IMG/VR virus record: IMGVR_UViG_3300034106_006602 | Coordinates: 1-33,062 of that record | DNA: 33,062 nt | Source of the DNA: a virus | Reading direction: 5' to 3' (one strand) | Part shown: positions 4,517 through 30,157 of the stretch, piece after piece | Position numbering within the stretch: the stretch's first letter is position 1 | Layout: each line of letters starts with the position of its first letter | Notes under the pieces: model-generated | Told to the model about the DNA's origin: nothing | The model's database searches: none | What the model saw: only the letters and a program-made list of their open reading frames with translations | Translations under genes and position numbers: made by a program

Positions 4517-7285
4517 TTACTGGTTGCGGGCGCGGGTGATGATGACCGGGGCGCGGGCGAGGATGCGCTGGTAGAGTTGGAGGGTCTGCTCGTAGTTCTG
4601 GCGGGCCTCGGGGGGCAGGCTGGCGCGGAAGCGCTGGCGGGCGTCGGCGGCGGTGATGCCGGTGCCGTCCTTCCGGTGGCCGCCGCCGATGACCTGGGCG
4701 GGGTCGATGATTTTGAGGACCTTCTCGATGTCCTTCGGTGTGGCGAGGCTGATGCCGAGTTCGCGCAGCTTTTCGGCGAGCACCTTGACGCGGGCGAGAT
4801 CCGGCTCCGGCTGGGCCAGGGCGGCCACCAGGGCGCGTTTGGCGCGGCTTTCGCGGGTGGTGCCGTAGTCGTAGCCCTGGGTGCTCTGGATGCCCTGGGA
4901 GACGCGGAAATCGTCGGCGAGGCGGTAGAGGTTCGGTTCGGCGGACTTGACGTTGAGGCCGAAGAACGAGCGCAGCCAGGTCTGGGTGGGGTCGTAGGTC
5001 TGGAGCGTCTTGTTGGTCTGGACCTCCCCTGCCCTGCTCAGCGGACCTGCGCCGATGAGGTCGGGCGCCAGCGGCGGGAGCATGACGCCAGCGGCGTGGC
5101 CAGTGTAGGCGCGGAGTTGTTCGCCCGTCGTCATGTCAGCCTCGACGATGTGGCGGCCGGAGAATGTGTCGCGGTTGGTGGCCCAGGAGTAGGCGAGGCC
5201 CATGACGGGGCCGGCGGAGAGGAGCTTGCGCCAGGCGGTCTGGAACGCGGATTCTTTCTCTTCCAGCGGGACGATGCGGGAGCCGAGGAGGTCGGCGAAG
5301 GGCATGGTGCTGGAGATGTCCCACTGCTGCACCTGGCCCTGGCTGCTGCGCATGGGCAGCAGGATGGAGAACAGGTGGGCATTGCCAAGGCCGAGGATGC
5401 CGAGTCCGCGTCCGGCGAGGTCTTTTTCGATCTCTTCGCGGTCGCGGTCGTCGAGGCCGAGGAGCATGGCGGAGAGCGAGGACAAAGCGGCGGGGAATGC
5501 CAGGGCGGCGGTGAGCGCCAGCGGGCGCTCGTGGGCGGCGGTGAGCAGGATGCGGGTGGACTCGCGGAAGAACGAAAAGAACGGGTTAATGAAGCGACCG
5601 ATGGCCTTCGTGGTGCCACTGGAGCCGAGGCGGTCGTAGTAGGGGAACCACTTTCTGACCTCAGCCGCTGCGCGGCTTTGGAGTTCCAAGTTTGAAGTTT
5701 CAGGTTTCAAGTTTTTGAACTGGCTCTTGTAGCGCAGGTAAGCGGCGATCTTGTAGAAGTCGTCAGGGACTCGTCGGATGTCGGAGAGCCATTCGTTGGT
5801 GCCGTGGAAAGCCGACCCGAAGCCCATCAGCGTGCGCTGCAGGCGGCCGGGATTGAAATCCTCGATGGTCTTGGTGTCGGGTAGGAGGCCTTTCAGGCGC
5901 TCCTTGACCTGGGTGGAGTAGGCGTCACCACCGAGGACCTGCTGTTCGAGCAGTTCGGCGAAGGTGGTGCCATCCTGGGACTGGCCTTCGCGGAGGATCT
6001 GGATCGCGTCGCGGTAGTGCTGCCAGTTGCCGGGGTTCCAGATGGAATTGCCGCCGAGGTAGGCGAACACGGTGTTGCCGATGGCGTCGCGGATATGGGA
6101 GCCGGGGTTCCAGACGAGCTTGGCGGCTTTCCATTTGCGCAGGAGGCCGTCGTAGGCGCGGAGGGCGGCGTTTGGCACGTCCACGAGGTCAAGGATCTGG
6201 CGGGCGATGTCCTCGCGCAGGTATTTACCGGCGAGGGGTCCGAAGCGGGGGCTGTCGGGAATGAGGGTGAAGCCGGCGGTGTCCACGTCGGTGGTCCATT
6301 CTGGGTTCGCCGCGGTGGAGCGCATGAGTTCCATGGTGGCGGCGTTGTGCGACTGGCCGAGGACGTAGCGGGCGACCGCATAGACGGGGTCTTTGACGAG
6401 CTTTTCGGGGGTGAAGGGATCGACCGTCTGGAAGCGCTGCTGGGCCTGGTAGCTCAGGTCCTTGATCATGCGACGCAGGACCGGGGAGAGCGCTTCTTTG
6501 GCGGCGAAGTCGTCGAGGGTGAGCTTGCGGATCTGGTCGCGCACGGCGGCGCGGTCGTTGCGGCCCATGGGGGTGAGCATCGCCTTCACCTCCGGCGACT
6601 CGTCGCGAAGCTGGGTCAGGATGTGCTGGCGGAGGAAGGTCTGGAACCAGGCGTCGCGCTGGGCTTTGTCGCGGAAGCGCCAGCGGTTGCGCTTGCCGCC
6701 TTCCTCGCGGTTCACGGTGACGTATTGGCCGGTGCGGTCGCGGCGGGAGGTATCGACGACGTGGTAGGCGGTGGAGCGCTGCTGGAGGAGATCGCGGACG
6801 CCAAGCTTGAAGGCTTTCAGGAAGGAACCGCCGGCGGCGAGGGCTTCGTCCTCGGTGTAGCGGGGCATCCAGCCGTTGGCCTGGAGTTCCTCGAAGGTGT
6901 CCGGGTTCATGAGGCCCTGTTTCACGAGTTCCTCACCGGTCTGGCGCAGCATGGTGCGGAGGCGCTCGGCGAGGCGCTGGAGCGGCTCGGGGAGGCTGGA
7001 CAGGGGGAGTTTGCCCTCCATGGCGTCGAACATCTGCATGCGCCATTTGGGGTCCTGGGAGAACTCCGGCGGGTAGGCGAGGTCGGAGAGGCGGGCTTTG
7101 TCGCTGAGGGCGCGGATGAGGTCGTTGGCCTGCTCGGCACCGAAGGCGGCCTTGCGGTCCATTTCGTGCTTCAGGGCAAGCCATTCGCGGGGCATGAGGG
7201 CGTTTGGCAGGAGCTGGTCGATGAAGCCCTTCACGGTGGGTGCGGCTCCTTCGGTCTGGTTCAGCCAGGCGAGGGCGGCGGCTTT
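4517..7285 (-). other. Giant protein, virion-type C-terminal region
   Basis: Residues about 6115-7036. LPREW-type opening (NALMPREWLALKHEMDRKAAFG), a long helical body, AAKLVWNPGSHIRDAIGNTVF (resembling the 'NP..h.RN..GN' block common near the end of large phage proteins), INPFFSFFRESTRILLTAA and a hydrophobic segment (LALTAALAFPAALSSLSAMLLG, about 6702-6723). The layout matches the C-terminal portion of large internal virion proteins. Confidence 0.6.
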
Positions 7286-10200
7286 GGCGGAGTTCACCTT
7301 GGGCGCGGCGACGCGGTCGAGGGCGGCGGAGAGGCGTTTGTCGAGGTTGTTGGAGCCGAGGGTGGCGAGCGGCGCTTCGAGGCCGGTGAGGCGGGCGATG
7401 GAGGCCGCGGCGGTGGAGGTGGTTTGGGCGGCGCGGGAAACGGTGGAGCTGAGGGCGGAGAGGGGGCGGGGGGAGGCGAAGAGGGCGAGTTCGAGCTGCT
7501 GGTCGCGTTTGCCGTCCAAGGTGGGGAGTCCCATCGAGACGCGGATGGCGTTGATTTCCTTGGTGGCCGGTTCGTAGGCCCCGAGTTGGTCGGGCGAGAT
7601 GATCGTGTCGTCGAGGGCGATGTCGTAAAGTTCGTTGATGCTGGGAGCGCGACCGAGTTCGGGGAATTGCTGCGCACCGAGGTCGTTGCCGTGGACATTC
7701 AACTGGTCGAGCATGCGCTCGAGTTTCGGCAGGTTTTTATCCGGGCCGAAGGCGAGGTAAGTGCCATCGACGGTGGAGGCTCCGACGATTTGGGCGATGC
7801 CGGCGATGCGGTCGTTGGTATTCACGCGGCCCATGTGGACGGGGATAGACCGGCGGTGGGCCTCCATGAAGATTCCGGCCCAGGCCGCCCGCTTTGCCGG
7901 GGCGATCTGGCCGGTTTTCCATTCGGTGGATCCGCCGATGAAGAGCACGTCGATGTCATCCCATGGGATGCGGGCGCGGATGTCCTCGAGGCCATCCTGC
8001 GCGGCGAGGGCGACGGGCAGTTGTTTGTCGTGGATGAAGCGCGCCCATTCCGGGAAACGGTCGAGCGTGGCGGCGGCGTCTCCCACGACGTCTGGAGCGA
8101 CGACGAAGAGTGTTTTGGCGCGCACCGCTGGTGTGGCGGCCACACGGTCGACGAGTTGTTTGAAGGCCGCCGGGTCGAAGGGCGTGGCTTTCGAGAAGAC
8201 GCCGTTGTCGATGGCGACGAATGGGTAGTCGGTCGTGTGGGCGAGGTAACTGGGGATCAGTGGCGTGATGAGGAGCCCGATGTCGCCCCGCTCTTTGGCG
8301 CGGGCGGCGATGGTGGCGTTGTGCTTGCCGCTGATATAGCCTGTCTGCAGCGATTCGGGATCGCCTTTGCCGGGGACATTCTGCCAGGCCTGGAGGCGTT
8401 GAGCGCGGGGGGAGGCGGCCAGACTGGGAGAAGAGGAGAGGGGTTGGCCGTTGCGCTCGATGATCTTGACGAGTTTGTCGTCGAAGAGGACGTAGTTGTA
8501 GGTTTGCAGCTTGGCCATGGCGGCGCGAGCGGCTTCCTCGGTGGGTTCTTTGGCAACCAGTTTGCCCGTACTGGTCAGCACTTCCCACGCGTGGCTGGTT
8601 TTCTCGATGCGGTAGCGGCTGGCGGCGTCGGTGTAGCGGATGCCTTTGATGCCGGCCTTGGCTAGAGCCTCAGACACCTTTTGCGGTGTCATGCCCTTTT
8701 GTTGGGAGGCATCACGGTAGGTGCTGCCGATGTCCTGGTAGGCGTAATTGTGATCGAGTTCCTTGCGGCCTTGCTCCGCTTCCTCGCGGGTCGCGTAGTC
8801 GTTCATGGTCGAGTAGCCTTTGGTATTGAGCACGAGCCAAGGAAATTCTGTGCTGGTCATCGAGCGGCGATATTCAGGCAGTCGGCCATCGACGACTTGG
8901 TGTCCAATCACGGGCAGCAGGGCGTCCATGAAGCGCTGCTGGATTTCTTGGGGGTGGTTGATGAGGTCGTCATTCCAATCGAGAAACTCAGCCGGGTCAC
9001 CAAGGAGTTCGACGGTGTAAAGGTTGCCGCGGCGTTTGTTAGCCTCGGGCACGACTTTGCCGGAGTTCAGGAGGTCGAGGGCGGCCTGGGCGAGGCGGAC
9101 GCGGGAGGAAGTGTCCAGAACCATAGGGTCCGCCGAGGTCCTGCCACTGTCGAGGAGGCGGTCATATTCCTCGGACTGGACGTTGAGTTGTGCTTCATAC
9201 TCGGACTTCAATCGAGCAGGCGCGTCGGCGAACGTGGCGGCATACCAGCCAAGGCGGCTCCAGATGTCGTTGAAGGCTTTGGCGTCTATGGAGAACGATT
9301 CCTCGCCGGGTTTCCATCCGACGGCGCGGGCGGTCCAACGGCCTTCGAGGGAGTCGTAGGGGGTGGTGTCGATGGCGTTGTCAGTGATGCGGCTCAACGC
9401 GTCGGTGACCTCCTGGATGCGGTAGCTCTCGACCTGTTCCTGCGCGAGCAAGTTGCGGATCGTGTCTTTGGCACGTTTGGAGGCGGCGTCGAAGCTGTAG
9501 CCGTAGGTGGTGCTGTCGTGGTAGAACTGGTCCACGGCGTGCTCGAAGTAGCGCACGGCAGCGCGAGGCCAGTCCTGGCCGACATGGGCGATGGCCCATT
9601 TTTTGAATGCCTCGGGTCCTTCGCGCTGGAAGAACTCTTTGTCGCCAATGCGGAAAATGGGATAGCTGAGGGCCTTGCGGTATTGCTCGGCGACCTTCAT
9701 GGCCTCGGCGAAGTAGAGGCCCCAGCCATAGACCTGGGCACCTTCGCCGGAGCCGATTTTGGCGGTGGAGAAGCCTGACTCGAGCGGGATGTCGTGCGGG
9801 GTGCCGTGGTGGGCGCGGATGCTGGCGGGCAGGAGGTGCAGGCCAGGGCCGGTGAGGTGGTAGCCGTCCGGGAGGGTGTGGGTGGTCGCTGGGCGGGCAG
9901 CGGCGGCTGCGGTCAGAGGGACCGGATTGACTTTGCTGACATCATTGACGGGGATGTCGGAGGGTTTGGCGGGGCGGGTGTGGTTGCCGTGGGTGAGCCA
10001 GTGTTTGAGGCCGGCGACGGTGGTGGGGACGGCGGACTGGAGGCCTTTCCAGCCGGGTTCGTAGGCGGCGAGGTAGCCGCGGGCGGCGGAGGCGGCGTCC
10101 GGGAAGCCGAGCATGATTTTGTGCTCGTCGAACTGGGCGGCTGCGCCAGTTTCAAGTTTCAGGTTTGAAGTTTCAAGTTTCCGCTGGTTGATGATGAGGA

Positions 10201-19200: not shown

Positions 19201-22200
19201 TGGCCAGAGCTTCTTCGACCTCGGCGATGCGCTGGCGGCGGTCGGCCATGTCGGCGACCATGGCGTCGATGGCCTGCGGGTTGACGTAGGCAGGGCGGCT
19301 GGCGCCGGGGCGCGGCGCCTCAGTGATGGCCAGCGGCGTGCGCGGCACGGGGCGCGATTGAGGCGCCGTGTTGACTGCTGGCGCGGGCGGTGGTGGCGGG
19401 GTGCTGGTGACGGCGGCAGCGACCTGGCGTGCCAGTGTCGCAGGGGTGATGGTCTGGCTTTGCGCGAACTGGGCGCCGGCGAGATCGGCGCTGGCGCGGA
19501 GCAGGCGGGCGTGCAGGCTGGCGAGGGTCTTGCGGGCGGCCTCGGGCTGCTGTTTGAGCAGGGCGAGGAGGTCGGCAGGCGGGGCCTCGGTGCGCTGGGT
19601 GAGGCGGGAAACGAGGCGGGAGAGGAGATTCGTGGAGCGGGTAGATGCAGGGAGATACCCACGTTGCGAGTCAGCGGTGCTGCTCGTAGTGCCTGGCGCT
19701 TCTCCGGCAGGTCGGCCTCTCTCTCCCTGCATCGTTCCTGCCGCCATTTTTGCTGCCGACATGAGTGTATCGGCGGTGTTTTGCGCATTTTCGGGGCTTT
19801 CCCCCAATTCTTCGGTCAATTCACGCACAAGCAGTCGAGCGTGGCGATCCATCGCGGGCTGGCTGCCCGCTTTGGCGGCCTGATACATGGCCAGCGCAGT
19901 GGTGTTGAGGTGGGTGCGTCCGAAACCGTGTTTTCGCACAAACTGCGCTTCGTCTGGCCAGACCATGAGACTGCCATGACCACCAGCTGGGGTTTCTTCG
20001 CGTCCTTCAGCCTCGGCGGCTTCGATACGAGCACGCTGGCGGGCATTCGGCATGCTGCCACCTTCATTGGTGCCCCCTTGGATGAACTGGGCAAATTCGA
20101 GTTCGGGCGGGAATCCCAAACGGTCGGAGGATGCCAGCAGCGCAGTCTGCACCTCGCGGGACACACTGCGGTCGCCGGTCATGGCGGTGAGCAGGTGGCG
20201 GAGGAGGTCGGACTTGTTCTCTTTCCGTTCCTGGTTCTTCGTGCCTGGTTGTTTGCTGGAGCGGTAGGCGCGGTACGCGATGGATTGAAGCTCGGGGGTG
20301 AGCAGGTCGAAGGCGCGGGCCATGGCCTCGGGGGAGAGGCTTGGGTCGGTCTTGGCGAGGTGGTCGAAGAGGACGCCGTTCTCCATGGCCTGGAGGGCGA
20401 TGCCGGCGGGGTCGCGCAGGTAGTCGAGGGTGGCGAGGCGGTCCTCGTTGCCACGGCTTTTGCCCTCGTAGATGCGAAGCTGGTCGGCGATCTGGGCCAC
20501 CATGCCTTCGAGTTCGGCACGGAGCGGGGCGTCAACCAAGCCCATGAGGTCACGCAGGGTTTTGGACAGGTCGCGCAGCAAGTCGCGGATCCACGCGACG
20601 AGCGTGGTGGGGGTGTCTACCGTCTCGGTGATGGCCTGGGCGAAGGCCTGGTCCTGCACCAGCATGCGCAGAAACTCGTTCTGCATGTGGTATTCCTGTG
20701 CCGCGGTAAGCTTTGCGGGCATGGTGGTCCGGCCGTAGTCGTAGGCTTGCCAGACCTGGGCACGGAGCATCTGCGGCAGACTCCGCCACTGGCGGCGGAT
20801 GGCTTCGCGACCGTATTTCTCCGGCTGGGTGCGGGCGAGGCGCAGGACGACGGCGTGGATGTCCTCCTCGATGCCGGTGGCGCGGATGGCGTCGGCCGGA
20901 TTGCTGAGGTAGTCGAAGTTCGCCACGATGGCGTCGAGGTCGAGCAGGCGGGTGATGCGGCCGTCGATCTCTTCCACGGCGGTCATGCTGCCATTCAGGC
21001 GGCGCACCGCGGCGGGACCGACAGCGATGGCGTCATACAGCGCGTGGTGGCGCTGGAAGCTGTCCTCCATGGCGGCGAAGGCCTGGCGTGCCCAGGCTTT
21101 CTTGGCCGGGTCTTTGATGCGGGCCAGAGTCAACAGTTTGGAGCGGGAGTAGGCGCTGTTTTTGCGCAGAGGCGACTTGCTCTTGATGCTGAGGTCCGGT
21201 CCCATGCGTGCGGCGCTGGGGTCTTTGCCCTCGTCGGAGAACGGCGTTGGCTGCGGGCGGTTGGCGGTGTCGGCGCGGTCGCCGGTGGCCAGCGGAGTTT
21301 CGGACTGGTCCTTGGTGCCGAGGTGGTTGTGCGCGGCGACGTTTGAGCGCTCGGTGGTCCAGCCAAGGCCGAGTTCGAGGGCTTGACGGAGTGTGCTGTG
21401 TGTGAGCGTCTGACCGCTGGCTTCGACGGCTTGGGCCGCAGCGGCGGTGGCGTCGGCCTCGGTGATCTCCTTGGCCTTCACGGACGCCTTCACTGGAGCG
21501 AGGTCGGCCACGACCTGGCGTTCGCGCAGGTAGGCGATGCGTTTCTCGGCGGCGGCACGTTCGGACGTGCCTTCGATGGTGTCGTCGTAGGCAGCCTGCG
21601 CCTTGGCGAGCGCGTCGGCGATGTCCTCGGGCGACGTTGTTTTGGATTTGTTGACGGCGTTGAGTAATTCGTCGGCGGCTTTGTTGGCGTTGGCCTTGGC
21701 AGCGGCGAATGGATCTGCTGACGCGCTGTTGTAACGCAACGGGTCGTCGGCGGCTTTAGACTTGGCCTTGCTGCCAGTGATGCCGAGTTCGGCGAACAGG
21801 GCGTCGCGTTGGGAGCCGGCCATCTTGTTGAAGTCCTCGAAGGACTTCCCTGCCATTTGCGGGTGGGCGGCGATGGCTTTGGCGGCGGCCTCGGCTTCCT
21901 TGTCCGGCATGTAGCGGTCCACGAGCCAGTCGGCGATGGCCTTCTCGGTCGTGGGTGCTTTGGTAGATGGGGCCTCGGCGGCTACCGGAGCGCCAGATTG
22001 TGCAGGAGCACTCCCGCTTCGTGTCGGCTGAGTCCCTTGTTGAGCAGGATTTTGAACTGGGCCTGCGTTGGTGCTGCTGCCAGCGTTTGGTGCAGCACCT
22101 TGCGCTGCTGCGGGCTGAGGTTGCTGAGGTCCGGGTTGATTTGCGCTGGCAGGCTGTGGTCCTTCGGCGGTGGGTTTTTGGGCATAGCGGTTGCGGGTCT

Positions 22201-25200
22201 GAGTCTCGGTCGAGGGGATGGCGTCGGCCACGGCGGCGAGGCCGTCGTCGCGCAGGTTTTGCACGTAGCTGTCCTTGATGATGGGCCGTCCGCCTTTGTC
22301 GATGTCGAGCACAGCGGGGCCGGTGTATCCCTTGAGCGGCTTGAAGGTGTCTCCATCACGGGTCCATCCGGCAGCGTTGAGGTCGGTTTCCTCGACGTCG
22401 AAGAGTTCGCCACCTTGGGCAAGGCTCAGCACGAGCGCTGCACGGCGCTGGGCCTGCTCACGCGTGGCATCGTCCATGCCCGGGAGTTGCAGTTTATCGA
22501 TGGCAGCTTCTGCCCGGGCGATGGAGTTCGGCAGGTTGGCGCGATTGGTCGGCGTGTTCGGATCCACGCGGCTGCGCTGGAGGGCGTCAATGCCTTCCCC
22601 GAGGCCGCCGAGGGCGGTGGTGGCGACGGTAAACGAGGGCAAGGTCTGGAGGAAGTCCGCAACGGCCTGCTGGACGCTGTGACCGGTGCCGACAGCCTGC
22701 GCCACGGCGGAGATCAGTTCGTCCGGGGCTTCCTCGAGGAATGTCTCGCGCAATCCGCCCTTGAGAAACTCCTTCGCAACAAAGCCGAAGCGGCTCATCT
22801 GGTTGGCGAAGGCTTGGCCCAGCATCTTGCGGACTCCATCCGGGCGGGTGAGTAGGCGCTCAACGCCTTTGGGTCCGCCCATCACGGTCAGTGCGGCGGT
22901 GGCGAGACCGGAAACCACGGCGGGCATCTGGGCCTGGCGCAGCGCGGTCTTGTGGTCCAATTCGGGGTGTTCCTTGCGCAGGGTGGAGTAAATGTCCACG
23001 AGTTGCGCGGCGTAGGTCTGGCCTGCGCCAGCGGCGGCGGCGCCACCAAGACCGGCACGGGTGAGTGTGTCGATGGCTTTGATGGACTGGGCCGGCGTCT
23101 CGCTCTTGGCGATGGCCGCGGCCAGTGATGGCAGCCAGCGGGCACCAAGTTTGGTGCCAGCGAACAGACGGATGCCGCCTTGGGCGATCTTCGCACCACC
23201 AGCGGCGGGCAGGATGGAGCCAGCGACACGCGGCAGCATGCCAAAGAAGCCCTCGCTGATGAAGTTGCCGGAGGTATGTCCGCCGAGTTCGAGGCTGGAT
23301 TGGTGGGCCTGCGCTTTGCGGTTGGCCCACTGGGCGTCCTGCATGGCCGTTTCGTTGCCCGTCACGCCAGCGACGAGTCCCGAGAACTGCGCACGCAAGT
23401 CATTGCCGGCGGCGGCCAGGTTGCGGGTGAACTGCTTGGTTTTGGAGAGCAGTGTGCCGAGGATGCCGGTGTTCTTGCTTTTGTTGTCCTCGCTCCAGCG
23501 CAGTGCCCATTCGGCGGGATCGACGTCGGCGGGCCGTTTGGCCTGCCATTCTTTCCACGAGGTCCAGTCGTTGAGCGAGTCCTCGCCGAGCACGCTGCTG
23601 ACCTCCTTGATGGTGTCGAGCGTGTCCTGCGCGACGCGTTTGCGGATCTCTGGATAGCGCTCCATGGCCTCGGCCTGGGCGTCTGGGGTGGCGCCGGAGG
23701 CTTTCACGGCGGCTTCGTATTCGGCCTTGTCGGTGATCGTGGGATTGACCACGATACCGCCATTGCTGAGGAGGCGGGTCTTGACACCATTGCCACGGTT
23801 TTTGGCGGGCACGAAACCGGTGCCTTCGGCTGCTTTGACGATGGCTTTGGCAGGGGCTTCCAGCCATCCGGGCTGCTGCTCGTCGGTTTTGTCATCGCCT
23901 CGCACCATGTCCCACTGAGTGGCCTTCTCGGCGTCGTCGATGAGGGTCTTGGCCTCAGCGGGTGAAATGCCGAGGGCTTCGGAGAGGTTTTTGGCGGCGT
24001 CGTTGTAGAGTTTGCCTGCGTCCGCGTTGAGGTCCGGGTTGGCGGCCAGTTGGGACTGGATGCCGGAGACGGCTGCGTCGGCAGCGGCGAGGCGCTGCTG
24101 CTGCGTGGCCAGCAGGGTATCCATGCGCGTCTGGATGTCCTGGTCGAGCGCGGCGCGGGCTTCCTCGGGGAATTCGGATCCGTCCTGCTCGAGCACGGCG
24201 GCGCGGTCGGCGTGTTCCTGGCGCAGGGCATCGAGTTGGTCGGCGACTCCTGCCATGCCGGGGGCGTAGCGCAGGCGGCGGTCGGTGCTGGTCTTGACCT
24301 GTTGCTGCACGGTCTGCTCCTTGGTCTGGAGCAGTTGGGCGCTCTCGTTGTGCAGGTCGATGAGGCGCTGGAGGTCGGCACGCTCGGCCTCGATGCCGGT
24401 GAGCTCGTCGGCCTGCTGGGCCTCGTCGTCGGCCTGCTGGGCCTGGACGCGCTCGAATTGCTCAGCAAGGTCCTTGGGCCAGTGCTCCACGGTGCCGTCC
24501 GGTTTGGTAAAGGTGACGATTTCGCCAGCGGTGAGGCCGGACTGGCGGCGCTGGGCAGCCTGCTGGGAAAGTTGATCGATCTGCGTTGCGGTGACCTCAC
24601 GCTTTGCGTTGATGGTCTGCACTCGGGTGGCCAGCGCGGTGTCTCGCTGCTCGATTTCGGCCTTCGACTGGTCGAGGTCGCTGGCGAGCGTCTCCGGGTC
24701 CATTTCCGCACGGCGCTGGCGGGTGATTTCCGCCCATTTTTCGGGCGCGTCGCGGCGCAGGGTCAGGTCGGCAAGGCGCTTTTCCTGGGCGCTCAGGTAG
24801 TCCTGGGCCTCCTTGTCCTTGGCGAGGAGGTCGCGGAAGCGGGTAATGTTGTCGAGGTGCGGTTTTGTCGCGTCATTGGCTGCCAGGTCGGCCAGGTCCT
24901 GCTCGTCGAACGGTGCGGTGGGATCGGAGAGGCGTTCGAGGCGCTGGCGGGCCGTCTGGGCCTCCGGGCTGGGCGCCTCGTTAAAGGGAACCCAGTCGTT
25001 GTCATTCACGAGGCTTTTGGTTTTTTCGGTGAGAGTGCCTTGCAATGCGAGGCGGGCGGCTTGCTCGGTCCCGGTGATTTTTTTCTCGATGGCACGACGG
25101 GCGGTTTCGGTCAGTGGCTTGTAGCCTTTGTCCGCCACGGTGAAGTCACGCTCGGCCTGCGCGGCTTTGATTTCGTCGTCGAGTTTCTTGCGGCGGGCGG

Positions 25201-25627
25201 CCTCGGCTTTGGCGGCACGTTCGGCGGCGAGCGCTTCCTCGCTCTGGAGGTAGATCGGCTGGCCGGTGAGCTTGGACTCGACAAAGCGGCGGCCGGAGCG
25301 TCTGGCGGTGTCGATGGCGGCGGCGTTTGTGCGCTCCTGCTCGGCCTTCCGGGCTTCCTCGGCCTGCTTCTGGTCGTGCAGCGGGTCCGGGTAGAGGTTG
25401 CCATCGGCGCCGGTCCATGGCGTGATGCCTTGCGAGCGCAGTTCGTATTCGGTCTGGGTCAGAGCGGCCTTCCGGGCGGCGTCCGCGGCGGCTTTCTGCT
25501 CCTTGGCAGCCTGCTTGGCCTGCTGGGTGGCGAGGCGCTCGGCGTCACGCTGCTGCGCGGCGACATAATCCTCGGCGGCGGCTTGTTCTTGTTGTGCTCG
25601 GCGGTAGGGGTCGTTGGTGGAAGGCAT
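4517..25627 (-). CDS. Giant 7036-residue polyvalent, virion-type protein
   Basis: One uninterrupted frame of 7036 codons, ATG at 25627, TAA at 4519-4517. The next in-frame Met is several hundred residues in, so this start is probable; there is no Shine-Dalgarno site. Approximate domains: coiled coils 1-565; Gly/Ala-rich membrane-active region 715-1015; Pro/Gln linker 1146-1220; possible degenerate zincin-like segment near 1583-1660 (EEDIHAV); coiled coil 2115-2205; duplicated module 2900-3090; D12-like methyltransferase 3340-3640; ADP-ribosyltransferase-like 3840-4000; 'YDLSKQ' domain 4030-4657; kinase-like 4860-5030; pyrophosphatase-like 5072-5220; second ADP-ribosyltransferase-like 5265-5730; TGT/DpdA-like 5745-5980; virion-type C terminus 6115-7036. 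This is the plan of the 'polyvalent proteins' of phages and conjugative elements. It is the last gene of the portal operon, so an internal head protein ejected with DNA is likely. Domain calls rest on motifs read by eye. Confidence 0.9.
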   Translation of the reverse strand: MPSTNDPYRRAQQEQAAAEDYVAAQQRDAERLATQQAKQAAKEQKAAADAARKAALTQTEYELRSQGITPWTGADGNLYPDPLHDQKQAEEARKAEQERTNAAAIDTARRSGRRFVESKLTGQPIYLQSEEALAAERAAKAEAARRKKLDDEIKAAQAERDFTVADKGYKPLTETARRAIEKKITGTEQAARLALQGTLTEKTKSLVNDNDWVPFNEAPSPEAQTARQRLERLSDPTAPFDEQDLADLAANDATKPHLDNITRFRDLLAKDKEAQDYLSAQEKRLADLTLRRDAPEKWAEITRQRRAEMDPETLASDLDQSKAEIEQRDTALATRVQTINAKREVTATQIDQLSQQAAQRRQSGLTAGEIVTFTKPDGTVEHWPKDLAEQFERVQAQQADDEAQQADELTGIEAERADLQRLIDLHNESAQLLQTKEQTVQQQVKTSTDRRLRYAPGMAGVADQLDALRQEHADRAAVLEQDGSEFPEEARAALDQDIQTRMDTLLATQQQRLAAADAAVSGIQSQLAANPDLNADAGKLYNDAAKNLSEALGISPAEAKTLIDDAEKATQWDMVRGDDKTDEQQPGWLEAPAKAIVKAAEGTGFVPAKNRGNGVKTRLLSNGGIVVNPTITDKAEYEAAVKASGATPDAQAEAMERYPEIRKRVAQDTLDTIKEVSSVLGEDSLNDWTSWKEWQAKRPADVDPAEWALRWSEDNKSKNTGILGTLLSKTKQFTRNLAAAGNDLRAQFSGLVAGVTGNETAMQDAQWANRKAQAHQSSLELGGHTSGNFISEGFFGMLPRVAGSILPAAGGAKIAQGGIRLFAGTKLGARWLPSLAAAIAKSETPAQSIKAIDTLTRAGLGGAAAAGAGQTYAAQLVDIYSTLRKEHPELDHKTALRQAQMPAVVSGLATAALTVMGGPKGVERLLTRPDGVRKMLGQAFANQMSRFGFVAKEFLKGGLRETFLEEAPDELISAVAQAVGTGHSVQQAVADFLQTLPSFTVATTALGGLGEGIDALQRSRVDPNTPTNRANLPNSIARAEAAIDKLQLPGMDDATREQAQRRAALVLSLAQGGELFDVEETDLNAAGWTRDGDTFKPLKGYTGPAVLDIDKGGRPIIKDSYVQNLRDDGLAAVADAIPSTETQTRNRYAQKPTAEGPQPASANQPGPQQPQPAAAQGAAPNAGSSTNAGPVQNPAQQGTQPTRSGSAPAQSGAPVAAEAPSTKAPTTEKAIADWLVDRYMPDKEAEAAAKAIAAHPQMAGKSFEDFNKMAGSQRDALFAELGITGSKAKSKAADDPLRYNSASADPFAAAKANANKAADELLNAVNKSKTTSPEDIADALAKAQAAYDDTIEGTSERAAAEKRIAYLRERQVVADLAPVKASVKAKEITEADATAAAAQAVEASGQTLTHSTLRQALELGLGWTTERSNVAAHNHLGTKDQSETPLATGDRADTANRPQPTPFSDEGKDPSAARMGPDLSIKSKSPLRKNSAYSRSKLLTLARIKDPAKKAWARQAFAAMEDSFQRHHALYDAIAVGPAAVRRLNGSMTAVEEIDGRITRLLDLDAIVANFDYLSNPADAIRATGIEEDIHAVVLRLARTQPEKYGREAIRRQWRSLPQMLRAQVWQAYDYGRTTMPAKLTAAQEYHMQNEFLRMLVQDQAFAQAITETVDTPTTLVAWIRDLLRDLSKTLRDLMGLVDAPLRAELEGMVAQIADQLRIYEGKSRGNEDRLATLDYLRDPAGIALQAMENGVLFDHLAKTDPSLSPEAMARAFDLLTPELQSIAYRAYRSSKQPGTKNQERKENKSDLLRHLLTAMTGDRSVSREVQTALLASSDRLGFPPELEFAQFIQGGTNEGGSMPNARQRARIEAAEAEGREETPAGGHGSLMVWPDEAQFVRKHGFGRTHLNTTALAMYQAAKAGSQPAMDRHARLLVRELTEELGESPENAQNTADTLMSAAKMAAGTMQGERGRPAGEAPGTTSSTADSQRGYLPASTRSTNLLSRLVSRLTQRTEAPPADLLALLKQQPEAARKTLASLHARLLRASADLAGAQFAQSQTITPATLARQVAAAVTSTPPPPPAPAVNTAPQSRPVPRTPLAITEAPRPGASRPAYVNPQAIDAMVADMADRRQRIAEVEEALAKRDAEIEAFAKRNKIDNLVTAKYKLEEQERREAERRKVIAENRAKFFLRDNALREIEQARQNGRNVEKESLMFLLGTGQIGRRRGAADLRLMGESEKRMLAALGIGVDTATDGGYYYTLSRLKSALLAVEYTLDGSAERQLALDELDYVRQQPVEWQTAPDDSKPAYVQWHRGWEHLIIRDSALADLALTMPNVAAAIPHSESERRATLGLPAQPAPTTERPVSAEKKQDSPSPTPTASPTHTRVEARDETTPVEAPPAARAPAARPSPKARIPLGGKLSLPAEFASQDDLDAFNYQLDRESLLRETTTAAERRKATERIQSLRARLIDESGATKEAIEQKLADYHRAVIDGAKKADPVEVYRPTPFHAFAGAITDTSEATLPAPVGGDIISGMKAQGIRHLGPPDNSDGWAWYRELKADAAMSKMKPREANRLAKAGDITDAKARLAWIDMHVVSQTGGRSIDEAAAELNESEYQQFPITSGEELGRAIMDAIATRLTARDAAPDPVVQAEKQAIQQGGDFRAVAEGAPGQPFTGRTLAARVQTGDEIQIGSEWLTVTDIDAEEGTVALDSDRYGPQAIEPDQTIRLRAIGDESLSDSPATRSTVAQPSLSDLQNDPDVIAARDELLAAMREAGMLSASDRMGAIGYVNDNGSVSLKFGQLSKLRHSETKHAQNTFRYVAAEGTVFWWKTPTELEQEAVAAEFERRGYSSPRHKNILTSDTESSLKTQDLIHGKLPASHRFTPEEIATVREELASNRLDDAYQGGNAWFHPRTQKWINLGMEPHFMAAPMIHQWGYGPAMVDGWARVVTETNSRGERTLGVEFYGPLTRRIQRVMFDTALTRGIDPDNIAYDPHAERYYGKKYDDETGDLLSASPRQLEKLRDDVLRSNLLESRMRGPRAWLTPRAEWINVQEHREVFPPKPHILHSYDAMHQAGFVRVAHSMLLHAEFHTGRLTPAQRRELENTAIERQTELSLDPQPLPASPRFRNAASQFADTAWNKNIRSFPAFLDFAAKTVPEAFPVLKTPHLRSAWNTILNEKDFPEITRAEEADALRPYGSPKIERRFGEMPPDIAARDESITPESLGIPTVKLAKQAKPVPPTDLLGNPIAEHEEEDEDESGDSEDKVQNRGSTELQRLQAIDELYGPLAPGVEVMETQNQDGDTVPHIMRGRGLMLAIDGQPHVAIRSVALPSIGTGHAPGVRFLPLAGDKSNWTGHINKALRIADPQLDDHTDIYIEPYGGGLVYLQNLEPLLRTTKPVFIASSQEFEPDRNLIYTTLQRGDAAALADIQAILSDINHKPQTDAGEALVRVFYTKSKKRIVRKLSPGAAAQLPNLVALLQRPNVKILPWNDVQTFERATAFAQQGKRVTLLEDSNYADLYAEKTQDQYKDIDTHPDMFNAGKITDFIGKDPKKLLTQKLPVYRAVLDAGGTVIATNNMNPDLINGLLAEFGDAGHWFGYAHRTRPVPDGFMRHPDGKGVLWSTERPEYLAILRKGVVNPTTGAPKYGTDTSAGLDYRTGPRRLLEGLDRAAQPRRTPSPHTGGSLEAAQSLRGPTHTNGPSPSAGPVPGSDGKKTDPRTPVLDATMSGGPDWDFTQSAQVAAELDAGWRSADERDAEMMAAGGIDDTEDAITLDELERAEIERQRQFYRDINGNTRPEALQASRRIHPATGQPLAASSRKKGPTFPGLKKPTLPAPTPRPELFDEWAAALGYANSLYGYRGEPTPGERTGYGNTEGNGIYLMRSRDEAEPFGHVRRVQFPEPHRPFLVTGDDLYLLNESEDLDQPIDPAKDTPWLQASKYAAQHAHNLGKGRWDAQLAGDILTKLLMESGYDSVYVKGMPDDWVVLLRTTRPGQKPLAPLPASARTPSDAGTSARTSPRLAAAPREVEPGFYSKLEQVITDKLPAKGNSPASVKALLENNGVKTDEIKWSGLLPWLQEQAKTGPIAQSALLDYLRTQGAVKFSVTQLGGPLIPANDEKRYRELVRISDPTPEQEAERIAIFHRRHNARKSTAETRNTQWQLPGGTNPQEVVITWNQSLPPEPTHEDRANSMSRRELIQWYRTHIFDDIPQDASEDAVTTERLRQLFIQNATLHPSNNPYYKTPPRVSPNYPEDTTHYGDLDALAWYRANDRTLDGSPGLFVEEFQSKWHQLGRDKGYRGDRQANGLPTAFTLKENAGGWSVYDAQGRDAGWAETQEDAIKAALKYEGGSDTGIPDAPYRTAWPLMLFKRALRDAVEAGKAWIGWTTGDTQADRYDLSKQVDRIRYIPGHQRLLADKGGTNVIDQTVPPEKLADHVGKDIAERLLNNPTRIIDALGGAQHELSGLDLRVGGEGMRKFYDDILVKEFGKYVKQWGGKVEQSEINTSTTLSTPEFKPISGSDWETFAGAEAFANGDRPLFAETTINVDGQPESVVVIIDANGLQMVSSEGETNWMAPNDVFPGQTSSGWWRSAASAQSAVEIAWKVEMSKFWRELQPIVGEGVATPRQGTTPIWRITITPQMRESVSRGQPLFAATRFPLDRALAPTATAPNALFAPSPRLPVSPSPSLLNAAYTAAARGQSSQWLPIRAVFAQARLLDPRLTPDAFMAAVKAADDAGTVYLSPPESAATVAAAGPFQLRNASGIVVTDMTLAPSALAASNRRNSRQTSGFLAPQGVAWKHGESRLIQGLAQADAFKGTGVGLVSSESEKPETYTRTGRSIPPYTERADLSDLAYEEAKLIERASAEGFFWDNAQVEKIIAYLGDAGGGTEHDVYITGEKRHLIVIRSTILDSYGFQGRSPAQYLQRLQSYNTAFPGIQTRMIGVSRNTRGNGVIWTVQPFVEGIELKDDKRLQSLMEAKGWVRIDGPGDDTIVYRHPPTGAIIRDAHTGNILVKGKELFPIDVIVTSLGSLSEVAPSPSLLVSPSSPLPAAQRVEQAAAQVEPNPTPAQQDAGNYQKGHLRWNGLDLTLENPRGTERTGRSKDGREWSVTLPHHYGYIKGTTGKDKDHIDFFMGPNPDSDHVLIINQRKLETSNLKLETGAAAQFDEHKIMLGFPDAASAARGYLAAYEPGWKGLQSAVPTTVAGLKHWLTHGNHTRPAKPSDIPVNDVSKVNPVPLTAAAAARPATTHTLPDGYHLTGPGLHLLPASIRAHHGTPHDIPLESGFSTAKIGSGEGAQVYGWGLYFAEAMKVAEQYRKALSYPIFRIGDKEFFQREGPEAFKKWAIAHVGQDWPRAAVRYFEHAVDQFYHDSTTYGYSFDAASKRAKDTIRNLLAQEQVESYRIQEVTDALSRITDNAIDTTPYDSLEGRWTARAVGWKPGEESFSIDAKAFNDIWSRLGWYAATFADAPARLKSEYEAQLNVQSEEYDRLLDSGRTSADPMVLDTSSRVRLAQAALDLLNSGKVVPEANKRRGNLYTVELLGDPAEFLDWNDDLINHPQEIQQRFMDALLPVIGHQVVDGRLPEYRRSMTSTEFPWLVLNTKGYSTMNDYATREEAEQGRKELDHNYAYQDIGSTYRDASQQKGMTPQKVSEALAKAGIKGIRYTDAASRYRIEKTSHAWEVLTSTGKLVAKEPTEEAARAAMAKLQTYNYVLFDDKLVKIIERNGQPLSSSPSLAASPRAQRLQAWQNVPGKGDPESLQTGYISGKHNATIAARAKERGDIGLLITPLIPSYLAHTTDYPFVAIDNGVFSKATPFDPAAFKQLVDRVAATPAVRAKTLFVVAPDVVGDAAATLDRFPEWARFIHDKQLPVALAAQDGLEDIRARIPWDDIDVLFIGGSTEWKTGQIAPAKRAAWAGIFMEAHRRSIPVHMGRVNTNDRIAGIAQIVGASTVDGTYLAFGPDKNLPKLERMLDQLNVHGNDLGAQQFPELGRAPSINELYDIALDDTIISPDQLGAYEPATKEINAIRVSMGLPTLDGKRDQQLELALFASPRPLSALSSTVSRAAQTTSTAAASIARLTGLEAPLATLGSNNLDKRLSAALDRVAAPKVNSAKAAALAWLNQTEGAAPTVKGFIDQLLPNALMPREWLALKHEMDRKAAFGAEQANDLIRALSDKARLSDLAYPPEFSQDPKWRMQMFDAMEGKLPLSSLPEPLQRLAERLRTMLRQTGEELVKQGLMNPDTFEELQANGWMPRYTEDEALAAGGSFLKAFKLGVRDLLQQRSTAYHVVDTSRRDRTGQYVTVNREEGGKRNRWRFRDKAQRDAWFQTFLRQHILTQLRDESPEVKAMLTPMGRNDRAAVRDQIRKLTLDDFAAKEALSPVLRRMIKDLSYQAQQRFQTVDPFTPEKLVKDPVYAVARYVLGQSHNAATMELMRSTAANPEWTTDVDTAGFTLIPDSPRFGPLAGKYLREDIARQILDLVDVPNAALRAYDGLLRKWKAAKLVWNPGSHIRDAIGNTVFAYLGGNSIWNPGNWQHYRDAIQILREGQSQDGTTFAELLEQQVLGGDAYSTQVKERLKGLLPDTKTIEDFNPGRLQRTLMGFGSAFHGTNEWLSDIRRVPDDFYKIAAYLRYKSQFKNLKPETSNLELQSRAAAEVRKWFPYYDRLGSSGTTKAIGRFINPFFSFFRESTRILLTAAHERPLALTAALAFPAALSSLSAMLLGLDDRDREEIEKDLAGRGLGILGLGNAHLFSILLPMRSSQGQVQQWDISSTMPFADLLGSRIVPLEEKESAFQTAWRKLLSAGPVMGLAYSWATNRDTFSGRHIVEADMTTGEQLRAYTGHAAGVMLPPLAPDLIGAGPLSRAGEVQTNKTLQTYDPTQTWLRSFFGLNVKSAEPNLYRLADDFRVSQGIQSTQGYDYGTTRESRAKRALVAALAQPEPDLARVKVLAEKLRELGISLATPKDIEKVLKIIDPAQVIGGGHRKDGTGITAADARQRFRASLPPEARQNYEQTLQLYQRILARAPVIITRARNQ
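5681..5720. repeat. Dispersed repeat A (CAAGTTTGAAGTTTCAGG), copy 1
   Basis: Reads FKNLKPETSNLEL in the giant frame. The matching copy is at 10148-10182. It sits in a loop of the virion-type C-terminal region. Confidence 0.7.
7688..8395 (-). other. Giant protein, TGT/DpdA-like TIM-barrel domain
   Basis: Residues about 5745-5980. The motif order follows tRNA-guanine transglycosylases: AIDNGVF (D about 5807) for DSGGF; APDVV (D about 5846) for the second Asp motif; ALAAQDG (Q about 5877) for the VQGG motif; FIGGSTEWK (G about 5898) for the GG-lid motif; HMGRVN for the YLMGVG motif; TVDGTYLAF (D about 5954) for the nucleophile strand MFDCV. No zinc-binding cysteine cluster is seen. DpdA proteins of this fold insert 7-deazaguanine bases into phage DNA, so a base-exchange activity is inferred. 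Confidence 0.55.
8438..9835 (-). other. Giant protein, second ADP-ribosyltransferase-like domain
   Basis: Residues about 5265-5730. AHHGTPHDI (NAD-binding His), GEGAQVYGWGLYFAEAMKVAEQY (the 'G.G.YF......A..Y' strand and helix), LYTVELLGDPAEFLDWN, AGIKGIRYTDAASR and YNYVLFDDKLVKIIERNG are in the order typical of phage polyvalent ADP-ribosyltransferases. A helical insert of roughly 250 residues separates the two halves. This is a better match than the first copy. Confidence 0.7.
9968..10414 (-). other. Giant protein, inorganic-pyrophosphatase-like domain
   Basis: Residues about 5072-5220. NYQKGHLRWNGLDLTLENPRG, HHYGYIKGTTGKDKDHIDFF, then VLIINQ and FDEHKIMLGFPDAASA follow the soluble-pyrophosphatase-like pattern known from polyvalent proteins, with the acidic D.D..D metal site. 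A 13-residue segment encoded by the ETSNLKLET repeat is inserted between INQ and FDEHK, inside the domain. Confidence 0.65.
10148..10182. repeat. Dispersed repeat A, copy 2
   Basis: Composed of near-tandem AGTTTCAAGTTTCAGG units and reads RKLETSNLKLET in the giant frame. It interrupts the pyrophosphatase-like domain between two conserved blocks. Confidence 0.7.
10493..10520. repeat. Dispersed repeat C (GGGAGAC units), copy 1
   Basis: Tandem GGGAGAC/GGAGACTA units on the plus strand read VAPSPSLLVSPSS in the giant frame, between the kinase-like and pyrophosphatase-like domains. Confidence 0.6.
10538..11050 (-). other. Giant protein, kinase-like domain
   Basis: Residues about 4860-5030. HDVYITGEKRHLIVIRS resembles the beta-strand pair with the ATP-anchoring basic residue. 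VIWTVQPFVEG is in the hinge position. IIRDAHTGNILVKGKELFPID (about 5001-5021) matches the catalytic loop 'D.H.GNi' and the metal-binding Asp. This fits the kinase-like fold described in polyvalent proteins. The substrate is unknown. Confidence 0.55.
11567..11605. repeat. Dispersed repeat C, copy 2
   Basis: Four near-tandem GGGAGACG units read APSPRLPVSPSPSLL in the giant frame, between the YDLSKQ domain and the kinase-like domain. Weaker relatives lie at about 8422-8445, 13557-13575 and 437-475. Confidence 0.65.
11657..13540 (-). other. Giant protein, phage 'YDLSKQ' large polyvalent-associated domain
   Basis: Residues about 4030-4657. Conserved blocks in order: FYSKLEQVITDKLP; KWSGLLPWL; THYGDLDALAWYRANDRT; LFVEEFQSKWHQLGRDKGY; APYRTAWPLMLFKRALRDAV; IGWTTGDTQADRYDLSKQV; LADHVGKDIAERLL; LSGLDLRVGGEGMRKFYDD; ITPQMRESVSRGQPLF. 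I recognise this block order from large proteins of many unrelated tailed phages. Its function is unknown. Confidence 0.65.
13628..14110 (-). other. Giant protein, first ADP-ribosyltransferase-like domain
   Basis: Residues about 3840-4000. LYGYRGE stands for the Y.G NAD-binding strand, EGNGIYLMRSRDEAEPFG for the 'G.GIY.a....A..yG' strand and helix, and ESGYDSVYVKGMPDDWVVLL for the closing 'GyDgv ... vvf' strands. This is the layout of polyvalent-protein ADP-ribosyltransferase domains. The catalytic Glu cannot be fixed by eye. Confidence 0.45.
14708..15610 (-). other. Giant protein, D12-like N6-adenine methyltransferase domain
   Basis: Residues about 3340-3640. FLPLAGDKSNW with a following helix corresponds to the opening 'GGK' motif of Dam/D12 methyltransferases. 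IYIEPYGGGLVYLQ (about 3376-3389) corresponds to motif I (EPF.GGG). A segment NLIYTTLQRGDAAALADIQ follows as the usual 'N..L...Y..i' part. VTLLEDSNYADLY (about 3510-3522) stands where motif IV, DPPY, is expected. GGTVIATNNMNPDLINGLL (about 3570) matches the late strand/helix. Motif IV lacks the two prolines, so activity is uncertain. Confidence 0.5.
16358..16930 (-). other. Giant protein, duplicated 'AW..P...WIN' module
   Basis: Two segments share a pattern. Near residue 2908 is AWFHPRTQKWINL, followed by a His and then AMVDGWARVV. Near residue 3040 is AWLTPRAEWINVQEH, followed by AMHQAGFVRVA. Common positions are A-W, P-R, W-I-N, a His, and A-M..G-[WF].R-V. This looks like a tandem duplication of a small domain of unknown function. 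Confidence 0.5.
17360..17428. repeat. TGAGCGA repeat cluster with a hairpin
   Basis: Several TTGAGCGA/TCGCTGAGCGA units within about 70 bp, including CGAGTCG (17405-17411), CTGAG and CGACTCG (17417-17423), an exact 7-bp inverted repeat. It reads as a Ser/Asp-rich linker in the giant frame and resembles a short palindromic element. Confidence 0.5.
19013..19285 (-). other. Giant protein, second coiled coil
   Basis: Residues about 2115-2205 form a strong charged heptad pattern (IAEVEEALAKRDAEIEAFAK, then EEQERREAERRKVIAENRAK). It is flanked by Pro-rich linkers and probably separates two globular parts of the protein. Confidence 0.65.
20221..20262. repeat. Dispersed repeat B (TTCCTGGTTCTT) inside the giant gene
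   Basis: Reads KQPGTKNQERKEN in the giant frame. A related GGTTCTTGGTTCTTGG stretch is found at 2597-2620 in an intergenic position. Confidence 0.55.
22583..23485 (-). other. Giant protein, Gly/Ala-rich membrane-active region
   Basis: Residues about 715-1015 contain several hydrophobic, glycine-rich segments: near 794 (FFGMLPRVAGSILPAAGG), 860-875 (GLGGAAAAGAGQTYAAQL), 900-920 (VVSGLATAALTVMGG) and 994-1014 (FTVATTALGGLGEG). An acidic stretch, LRETFLEEAPDELISAVAQ, lies between. The same order of glycine-rich membrane segments and an E/D-rich helix is seen in large ejected phage proteins, so insertion in the host envelope during DNA entry is inferred. Confidence 0.55.
23933..25627 (-). other. 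Giant protein, N-terminal coiled-coil region
   Basis: Residues about 1-565 are rich in Ala, Gln, Glu, Lys and Arg with long heptad-like stretches (for example residues 10-55, 90-175, 300-370 and 395-450), broken by a few globular insertions such as 'GEIVTFTKPDGTVEHWP'. Such regions commonly form elongated rods or oligomers in virion proteins. No enzymatic motif was seen. Confidence 0.7.
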
Positions 25628-25927: not shown

Positions 25928-26470
25928 TCAGGCTTCGTTGGTGGAAAGAAAACCGCCGGCGGCGACGCGGTAGGGCTTCACTGAGGCGGGCTGCTTGTTG
26001 TAGGGCAGTCGGCGGCAGGCCAGCAGGCGGTTTTTGGCGATGCGGGTGACGCACACCTTGTTCGACTGGTTGCCACCGAGGACATGGAAGGCGCTGGCGT
26101 CTTCGGCCACATAGAAGCCAACATGACCGCCCCCGTTGCGACCGAACACGAGGACGTCACCGAGGCCTGGCTCGGGTGATTTCTCGCCAAACTTGGCCCA
26201 GTTCCTGGCCCAGAGCGGATCCTTGACGACCGGCTTGCCTGCGCGATGCGACACAATGGCGGCGAACAGTCCGCACCAGGGAATGTCGTCGTCGGAGTAG
26301 CCTTCGATCTTGACGCCGGCGAGGTTGAGTTCGTCACGCCAGCCGATGATGGTTTTGTTCGATCCTTTGCCGACCACCTCGGCGGTCCCGTAGAGGCGCA
26401 TGGCCTCCTGGATGGTGCGAGGCAGTTGGCCGACATTGGCGAGCCAGACGTAAGCGGGTGGCGGGTTCAT
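25928..26470 (-). CDS. TIGR02594-type peptidoglycan hydrolase (lysin)
   Basis: A 180-residue protein with the core of NlpC/P60-CHAP-like cysteine hydrolases of the TIGR02594 kind. PWCGLFAA carries the probable catalytic Cys66, GDVLVFGRNGGGHVGFY carries His116, and LGGNQSN offers Asn134 as the third residue. Upstream blocks typical of the family are present (EAMRLYG, then a Trp-containing loop before the Cys). There is no signal peptide, so export would need a holin or delivery by the virion. It lies between structural-type genes in the portal operon, which favours a virion-associated wall hydrolase over a classic late lysis cassette; no holin was seen nearby. Confidence 0.85.
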   Translation of the reverse strand: MNPPPAYVWLANVGQLPRTIQEAMRLYGTAEVVGKGSNKTIIGWRDELNLAGVKIEGYSDDDIPWCGLFAAIVSHRAGKPVVKDPLWARNWAKFGEKSPEPGLGDVLVFGRNGGGHVGFYVAEDASAFHVLGGNQSNKVCVTRIAKNRLLACRRLPYNKQPASVKPYRVAAGGFLSTNEA

Positions 26471-30087: not shown

Positions 30088-30157
30088 CACCTATGCAGAC
30101 AAAATGCAAAGGGTTTTGTTGCGACGCTTGATTTTCCTATGGAGGGGTGATGCAGTC
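30080..30157. promoter_or_regulatory. Divergent control region between portal and terminase operons
   Basis: A perfect 12-bp inverted repeat, GACTGCATCACC (30080-30091) and GGTGATGCAGTC (30146-30157), spans both start codons, so the two proteins share the opening M-Q-S. Between the arms lies the 16-bp element. On the plus strand GGAGGGG (30141-30147) gives the only strong Shine-Dalgarno site seen at a complete gene, and a TTGATT-like box lies at about 30128-30133. Confidence 0.6.
30110..30125 (-). promoter_or_regulatory. 16-bp upstream element, copy 2
   Basis: GTCGCAACAAAACCCT on the minus strand, 22 bases before the portal ATG; identical to copy 1. It is followed by TTTGCATTTTG and GGTGATGCAGTC, in the same order as at the gene starting at 32839. 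Confidence 0.65.

Follow-up and report, generated by a model that had tools for sequence, protein, structure and literature searches.

A 7,036-codon phage gene encodes an unusually large polyvalent protein with conserved ends and an exchangeable middle

Introduction

What is a phage protein of 7,036 residues, encoded next to the portal gene, and what could it do for the phage? An earlier note on this DNA had read the frame as a chain of at least six enzyme-like domains that is packaged in the head, enters the cell with the DNA and delivers its enzymes before phage transcription starts. Here we analyze this frame in the window, i.e. the whole stretch of DNA under study, a 33,062-base virus record, together with related contigs found by searching IMG/VR with the terminase large subunit (TerL) and with the carboxy-terminal end of the giant protein.

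Results

A single intact frame beside the portal gene

The giant gene occupies positions 4517–25627 on the minus strand, with its ATG at 25627, and comprises 7,036 codons devoid of internal stops. Across 50 Markov-1 shuffles of this DNA, no stop-free run was longer than 637 codons, compared with the 7,036 observed, and the longest on the antisense strand measured 952 codons. Codon-position GC was coding-like in all 300-codon bins, with GC3 values in the range of 0.65–0.93 and GC2 values of 0.39–0.57. Furthermore, a second contig of 47.6 kb (IMGVR_UViG_3300042905_005722) matches the window to 100% and without gaps over 22,291 nt, an overlap spanning 5,924 codons of the giant gene. As this contig extends the window, the genome measures at least 58.4 kb (33,062 + 47,611 − 22,291), of which the giant gene, taking this length, makes up about one third. 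Homologous single frames of 4,769–7,369 aa were obtained for ten more contigs (G002 6,618; G003 6,630; G016 7,284; G020 5,610; G021 6,073; G022 6,921; G023 4,769; G024 5,590; G025 7,369; and G006 at least 7,292 aa, where the contig end cuts the amino terminus and about 465 residues are missing by alignment). The exact second contig and the homologous frames render read-level proof of a broken frame very unlikely and, together with the shuffles and the codon-position GC, bear out the single frame described in the earlier note. The exceptional size also noted there holds in comparison with the ~3,500 residues of the N4 virion RNA polymerase (vRNAP), but is not unique, the ten related genes being of similar order. 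In G006 (L034, L036) the giant gene leaves one contig end and the portal-side genes begin at the other, resembling a circularly permuted genome, but the join is not exactly in frame.

The proposed location in the portal operon was supported. The gene for a portal protein of the SU10_portal family (27895–30090, minus strand; PF23899, E 1.6e-17) lies upstream of the giant gene on the same strand, separated by a few small ORFs, some of them uncharacterised, and by a gene for a CHAP-type cell-wall hydrolase (25928–26470, minus strand), whose Pfam CHAP match of 25.8 bits falls just below the 26-bit cut-off. The TerL gene (30929–32797) is on the plus strand, divergent from the portal and giant genes. 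The order TerL–portal–giant gene is kept across the related contigs, and this late virion-gene setting, with adjacent portal and TerL genes and synteny in relatives, is that of polyvalent proteins. The ORFs at 30090 (minus strand), 30147 (plus strand) and 32836 (plus strand) have a common upstream repeat element, ACAACAAAACCCT...GGTGATGC, which may be a common promoter or ribosome-site element; it runs into the listed GTG, so that the true starts may be the next ATG.

One member of the family, G021, is a MAG contig labelled Verrucomicrobia bacterium. This label agrees with the report by Iyer et al. that the kinase type found in the window occurs mainly in phages of Verrucomicrobia–Chlamydia and Bacteroidetes (PMC5512222). 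The host of the window phage is thus probably, if tentatively, a member of the Verrucomicrobiota, as the G021 contig might be a mis-binned phage.

Conserved ends and an exchanged middle

With the window as reference, the relatives delineate three parts of the giant protein. The amino-terminal region (21728–25627, minus strand; aa 1–1300), which is Ala/Gln/charge-rich at its start, is alignable over 45–100% in seven relatives and shows 22–55% identity in five. The carboxy-terminal region (4520–7384, minus strand; aa 6082–7036, ~955 residues) is alignable over 87–100% in nine relatives at 27–63% identity. For the 4,781 residues between them (7385–21727, minus strand; aa 1301–6081), termed the exchangeable cargo region, the alignable fraction is 0–52%. 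In G024 and G020 the carboxy terminus is kept and the amino terminus is undetectable by BLAST, which we count against the best explanation given below. Profiles of the two ends gave no convincing match in the PDB or Pfam, leaving both ends without a relative whose structure or function is known, and the named phages of INPHARED yielded no match to the amino-terminal 2,876 residues (E limit 1e-3) or the carboxy-terminal 843 residues (E limit 1e-5).

The set of domains in the middle varies among the relatives; some of the helicase and methylase matches lie under the Pfam cut-off. The window encodes kinase, InPase, ADP-ribosyltransferase (ART) and DpdA-like domains, G003 kinase, InPase and LPD37, and G006 RadC and kinase. 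G002 carries ddrB-ParB and SNF2/methylase; G016 ddrB-ParB, NDK, SNF2, DarA_C and ART; G021 ddrB-ParB, zeta toxin and SNF2/methylase; and G022 ddrB-ParB, zeta toxin, SNF2, RadC and InPase. Helicase and InPase were found in G020, LPD37 and InPase in G023, and DUF7178 and ART in G024. Two cargo classes emerge from this comparison, as the middles of G002, G016, G021 and G022 are 60–86% common to one another and 1–10% to the window.

The gene as a whole follows a history different from that of its neighbours. Among the compared contigs the TerL of G002 is closest to the window (87% identical; portal 76%), whereas its giant protein is 42% identical in the carboxy terminus, only 1% alignable in the middle, and groups with G016 and G021. 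Conversely, the TerL of G020 is 28% identical to that of the window, but its carboxy terminus 48%. The tree of the carboxy-terminal region rejects the grouping expected from TerL (p-AU 1e-43), and the TerL tree rejects the grouping by giant class more weakly (p-AU 0.016). This conflict between TerL and giant gene, in identities as well as trees, indicates that the giant gene has been replaced as a unit between phages.

Enzyme-like domains of the cargo region

Two unrelated domains of the polyvalent-protein class exceed their Pfam cut-offs on the one chain. The Kinase-PolyVal domain (10550–11062, minus strand; aa 4856–5026; PF18762, E 2.8e-11) contains an RDxxxxN catalytic-loop motif at aa 5005, and the InPase domain (9995–10423, minus strand; aa 5069–5211; PF18823, E 5.1e-47) a DKDHID motif at aa 5126. 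InPase homologues occur in proteins annotated as internal head or minor head protein, and a DarB-like PHROG was matched via the same domain. A probable ART of the ART-PolyVal type, split by an insertion, follows (8447–9868, minus strand; aa 5254–5727), supported by its homologues: with the ART-PolyVal profile (cut-off 31.2 bits) the window scores 16.7 bits, G025 36.6 and G016 32.5. Class domains found in relatives further comprise ddrB-ParB, DarA_C, ART-PolyVal, SNF2/N6-methylase, RadC, Zeta_toxin, NDK and LPD37. Based on these curated Pfam domains in the window and its relatives, the giant protein is a polyvalent protein of the class described by Iyer et al. in 2017, and an unusually large member of this known class, as the earlier note had proposed.

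The count of at least six enzyme-like domains stood in part. Kinase and pyrophosphatase are established by Pfam and one ART is supported by homologues, while the remaining assignments turned out weak, corrected or unsupported. Of the two proposed ARTs, the first (13598–14140, minus strand; aa 3830–4010) lies inside a stretch 70% identical in G006 and yielded no Pfam match, an uninformative structure model and 4% in hhalign. The proposed methyltransferase is doubtful. The corresponding region, a possible D12/Dam-type fold (14543–15823, minus strand; aa 3269–3695), is 63% identical in G025, its only such relative, keeps SAM motif I (YIEPYGGG) and resembles D12 enzymes in this motif alone (hhalign 44%, P 2.3e-4; controls <0.3%), but motif IV reads DSNY instead of DPPY in both known copies, and Pfam MethyltransfD12 (PF02086) was unmatched in the searched records. 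The structure model of the slice covering the methyltransferase and first ART had a mean pLDDT of 41, with meaningless PDB matches. For the methyltransferase-like and DpdA-like slices, single-sequence PDB searches gave no matches, and scans for relatives that started from the window sequence alone, or from two rows, reached only the near-identical contig and G025. Likewise, the suggested membrane-active segments were largely unconfirmed, as a single TM-like stretch of the giant protein, aa 6703–6727, passes the hydropathy cut.

Two further domains are defined by conservation. One (20348–21130, minus strand; aa 1500–1760) is present in seven relatives with an invariant EExxH (EEDIHA at aa 1587 in the window) and a later E..RM; its profile gave nothing convincing against the PDB and Pfam, where it resembles no family, and the domain could be metal-binding. 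The other (12023–13540, minus strand; aa 4030–4535) is uncharacterised, common to G003 and G020, and partly to a phage from Manatee Spring (MW202675.1, L054). Between positions 14717 and 24520 of this phage, homologous cargo is distributed over individual genes, the second and third after a portal-like gene; the annotations there read 'peptidase M15', hypothetical and 'type I restriction enzyme'.

The giant gene also contains short repeats in frame. Repeats with an 8-nt unit (AGACGGGG) are located at 10474–10532 and 11546–11612, and AAGTTTGAAGTTTC-type repeats at 5657–5708 and 10130–10181, corresponding to the carboxy terminus (about aa 6641–6657) and the InPase domain (about aa 5150–5166). 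Of 19 genomes that are relatives of the Verrucomicrobia MAG, 3 contain a AAGTTTGAAGTTTC-type pattern and none its reversed form.

A DpdA-like domain

The transglycosylase of the earlier note is read differently here. No such domain was found other than a TIM barrel of the DpdA/tRNA-guanine-transglycosylase (TGT) type (7673–8419, minus strand; aa 5737–5985; phrog_15826), pointing to base exchange, and the lytic reading was dropped. The domain shares 39–42% identity with small proteins of actinophages, several of which are annotated 'DpdA-like tRNA-guanine transglycosylase'. Its structure model, based on 56 related rows, reached pLDDT values >90 across ~200 residues and shows a TGT-type TIM barrel, with TGT 5lpp as best PDB match (E 7.9e-6), followed by Cap10 (9.9e-6) and other TIM barrels at ~1e-5. 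In hhalign, which was informative for this domain with alignments and uninformative with single-sequence templates, it scored 86% (P 5e-6) against 11 DpdA proteins and 1.8% against the TIM-barrel control Rpe. The domain did not reach Pfam TGT (PF01702), for which a search of the records gave no match, and a 7-row profile yielded nothing significant against the PDB. All 40 of the 40 rows compared retain the aspartates D5807, D5846 and D5954, which are candidates for catalytic residues. Taken together, actinophage identity, model and profile comparison led us to read aa 5737–5985 as DpdA/TGT-type. Its candidate substrates would be DNA and tRNA, or protein in the manner of Cap10 (PMC6884629, PMC11996544).

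In a tree of the 56 rows, the window domain forms a clade with four others (support 100/99), all five residing in frames of 2,499–7,036 codons, where lengths are minima for contigs cut at an end; most rows outside this clade are stand-alone proteins. DpdA-like cargo is present in at least five large frames. The frames of other phages (L082, L083, L085, L089) range from 2,499 to 3,549 codons, two being cut by contig ends; L083 also contains ddrB-ParB above the cut-off and the more distant L085 LPD1. As the carboxy-terminal module of the giant family was absent from the tested large DpdA-like frames other than G025, we regard the domain as cargo common to different polyvalent-type proteins. Our search of the open-access literature found no paper describing a DpdA-like domain in polyvalent proteins. 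The text of the polyvalent-protein paper contains neither queuine nor guanine nor deaza, and 'transglycosylase' is used there for lysozyme-like and SpoIID-like enzymes (PMC5512222).

Discussion

We consider it likely, by analogy, that the giant protein is a late, head-packaged and ejected cargo carrier of an SU10-portal tailed phage that probably infects Verrucomicrobiota. It would be produced late from the portal gene cluster, and the head would take up a few copies, each leaving together with the DNA or before it as a single long, largely unfolded chain, similar to the presumed route of N4 vRNAP. The amino-terminal ~1,300 and carboxy-terminal ~955 residues would serve as packaging and passage modules, and the exchangeable middle as cargo refolding inside the cell. 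For the window phage this cargo would include protein kinase, inorganic pyrophosphatase and ADP-ribosyltransferase domains as well as a DpdA-like base-exchange enzyme, putatively acting on host proteins, nucleotides or PPi, and DNA (or RNA/protein) bases before phage gene expression. We infer packaging, ejection, enzyme activity, targets and pre-transcription action from known systems, the delivery role resting on analogy since the ends match nothing of known function or structure.

The chief rival to delivery as one chain is maturation cleavage, by which a virion polyprotein would give rise to a number of separate proteins of the head or of ejection, the cargo never travelling as one chain. 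We regard this as possible though clearly the less probable outcome: in MW202675 the homologous cargo domains have genes of their own next to a portal-like gene, Iyer et al. suggest that zincin-like metallopeptidases process polyvalent proteins (PMC5512222), and the conserved EExxH domain sits between amino terminus and cargo, but the giant frame yielded no match to a protease family, and the analogue studied best, N4 vRNAP, enters the cell as a protein of ~3,500 residues (PMC12633501). That the protein is instead a structural part of the tail, baseplate or injection channel with incidental enzyme domains is improbable, as tail-family matches were absent and the cargo is swapped wholesale and drawn from curated families of injected effectors, despite the large size, the conserved ends, the neighbouring CHAP-type hydrolase and the one hydrophobic stretch that would fit such a role. 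Equally hard to favour is the idea that the protein is not delivered at all but is made inside the cell as a toxin-like protein of a prophage or of the host, for instance against rival phages. Captured polyvalent proteins have been suggested to be turned on other elements (PMC5512222), and relatives carry zeta toxin and ART cargo; against this, the giant gene belongs to a late portal cluster with synteny conserved in phage contigs.

An extension of the ejected-carrier reading is more speculative and, in our view, rather doubtful: the protein could be an interchangeable head-packaged chassis with constant amino- and carboxy-terminal modules, in which effector sets are swapped and whose whole alleles are traded between phages as a counter-defence locus, delivering an early-acting DpdA-like base editor or protein deazaguanylator. 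Such an enzyme would act on bases of the incoming genome, or by deazaguanylation of host proteins, before any phage gene expression.

The delivery parts of ejected proteins differ from phage to phage without any relationship, which makes such proteins difficult to spot. In the present family, comparison alone of some ten related genes, constant at the ends and exchanged in the cargo, pinpoints candidate delivery modules, and whether the constant ends suffice for loading cargo into head and cell becomes a testable question. If active, the DpdA-like cargo would mean that DNA bases can be modified as early as the entry of the genome, and not just during its replication.

Several known systems resemble parts of this protein. 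The P1 antirestriction head proteins DarA and DarB are separate, smaller proteins; DarA_C is found in G016 and DarB-like SNF2/methylase modules in relatives, whereas DarA_C and SNF2 are both absent from the window protein. Phage DpdA and DpdA-like enzymes (PMC6884629; Arthrobacter phage Sonali gp81) have the TGT-type fold and the motifs D-N/S-G, D..GD, GG and VH in common with the window domain, but are stand-alone enzymes rather than one domain of a giant protein. Cap10 of type IV CBASS (PDB 9ntn), with its TGT-family fold the second-best structural match, works in host defence on CD-NTase (PMC11996544), and no such partner is known for the window domain. The N4-like vRNAP (gp50), mechanistically the nearest precedent, is a giant late-encoded chain of ~3,500 residues, with an amino-terminal domain, the enzyme and a large carboxy-terminal domain; present in few copies per head, it is ejected with the DNA and presumed to unfold in transit (PMC12633501). 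The end modules flanking the enzymes of the window protein correspond to this arrangement as an analogy only. N4 vRNAP is half as long, its ends have no detected sequence relation to those of the window, and scans of all slices with Pfam, PHROGs and NCBIfam found no RNA polymerase domain.

The protein also resembles the polyvalent proteins of Iyer et al., including the Acetonema longum prophage giant WP_004096050.1, which likewise combine disparate enzymatic domains on one chain and for which a virion location in phages was inferred from gene context (PMC5512222). Window and relatives have in common with this set Kinase-PolyVal, InPase, ART-PolyVal, ddrB-ParB, SNF2 with methyltransferase, RadC and zeta toxin, as well as the phage late-gene context. 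Unlike that set, the window protein measures 7,036 aa, has amino- and carboxy-terminal modules outside any Pfam family, carries a DpdA-like domain, and belongs to a family in which both the middle and the entire gene are shown to be exchanged. The fixed ends with a swapped middle, the whole-gene exchange, the giant size and the DpdA-like cargo appear to be new.
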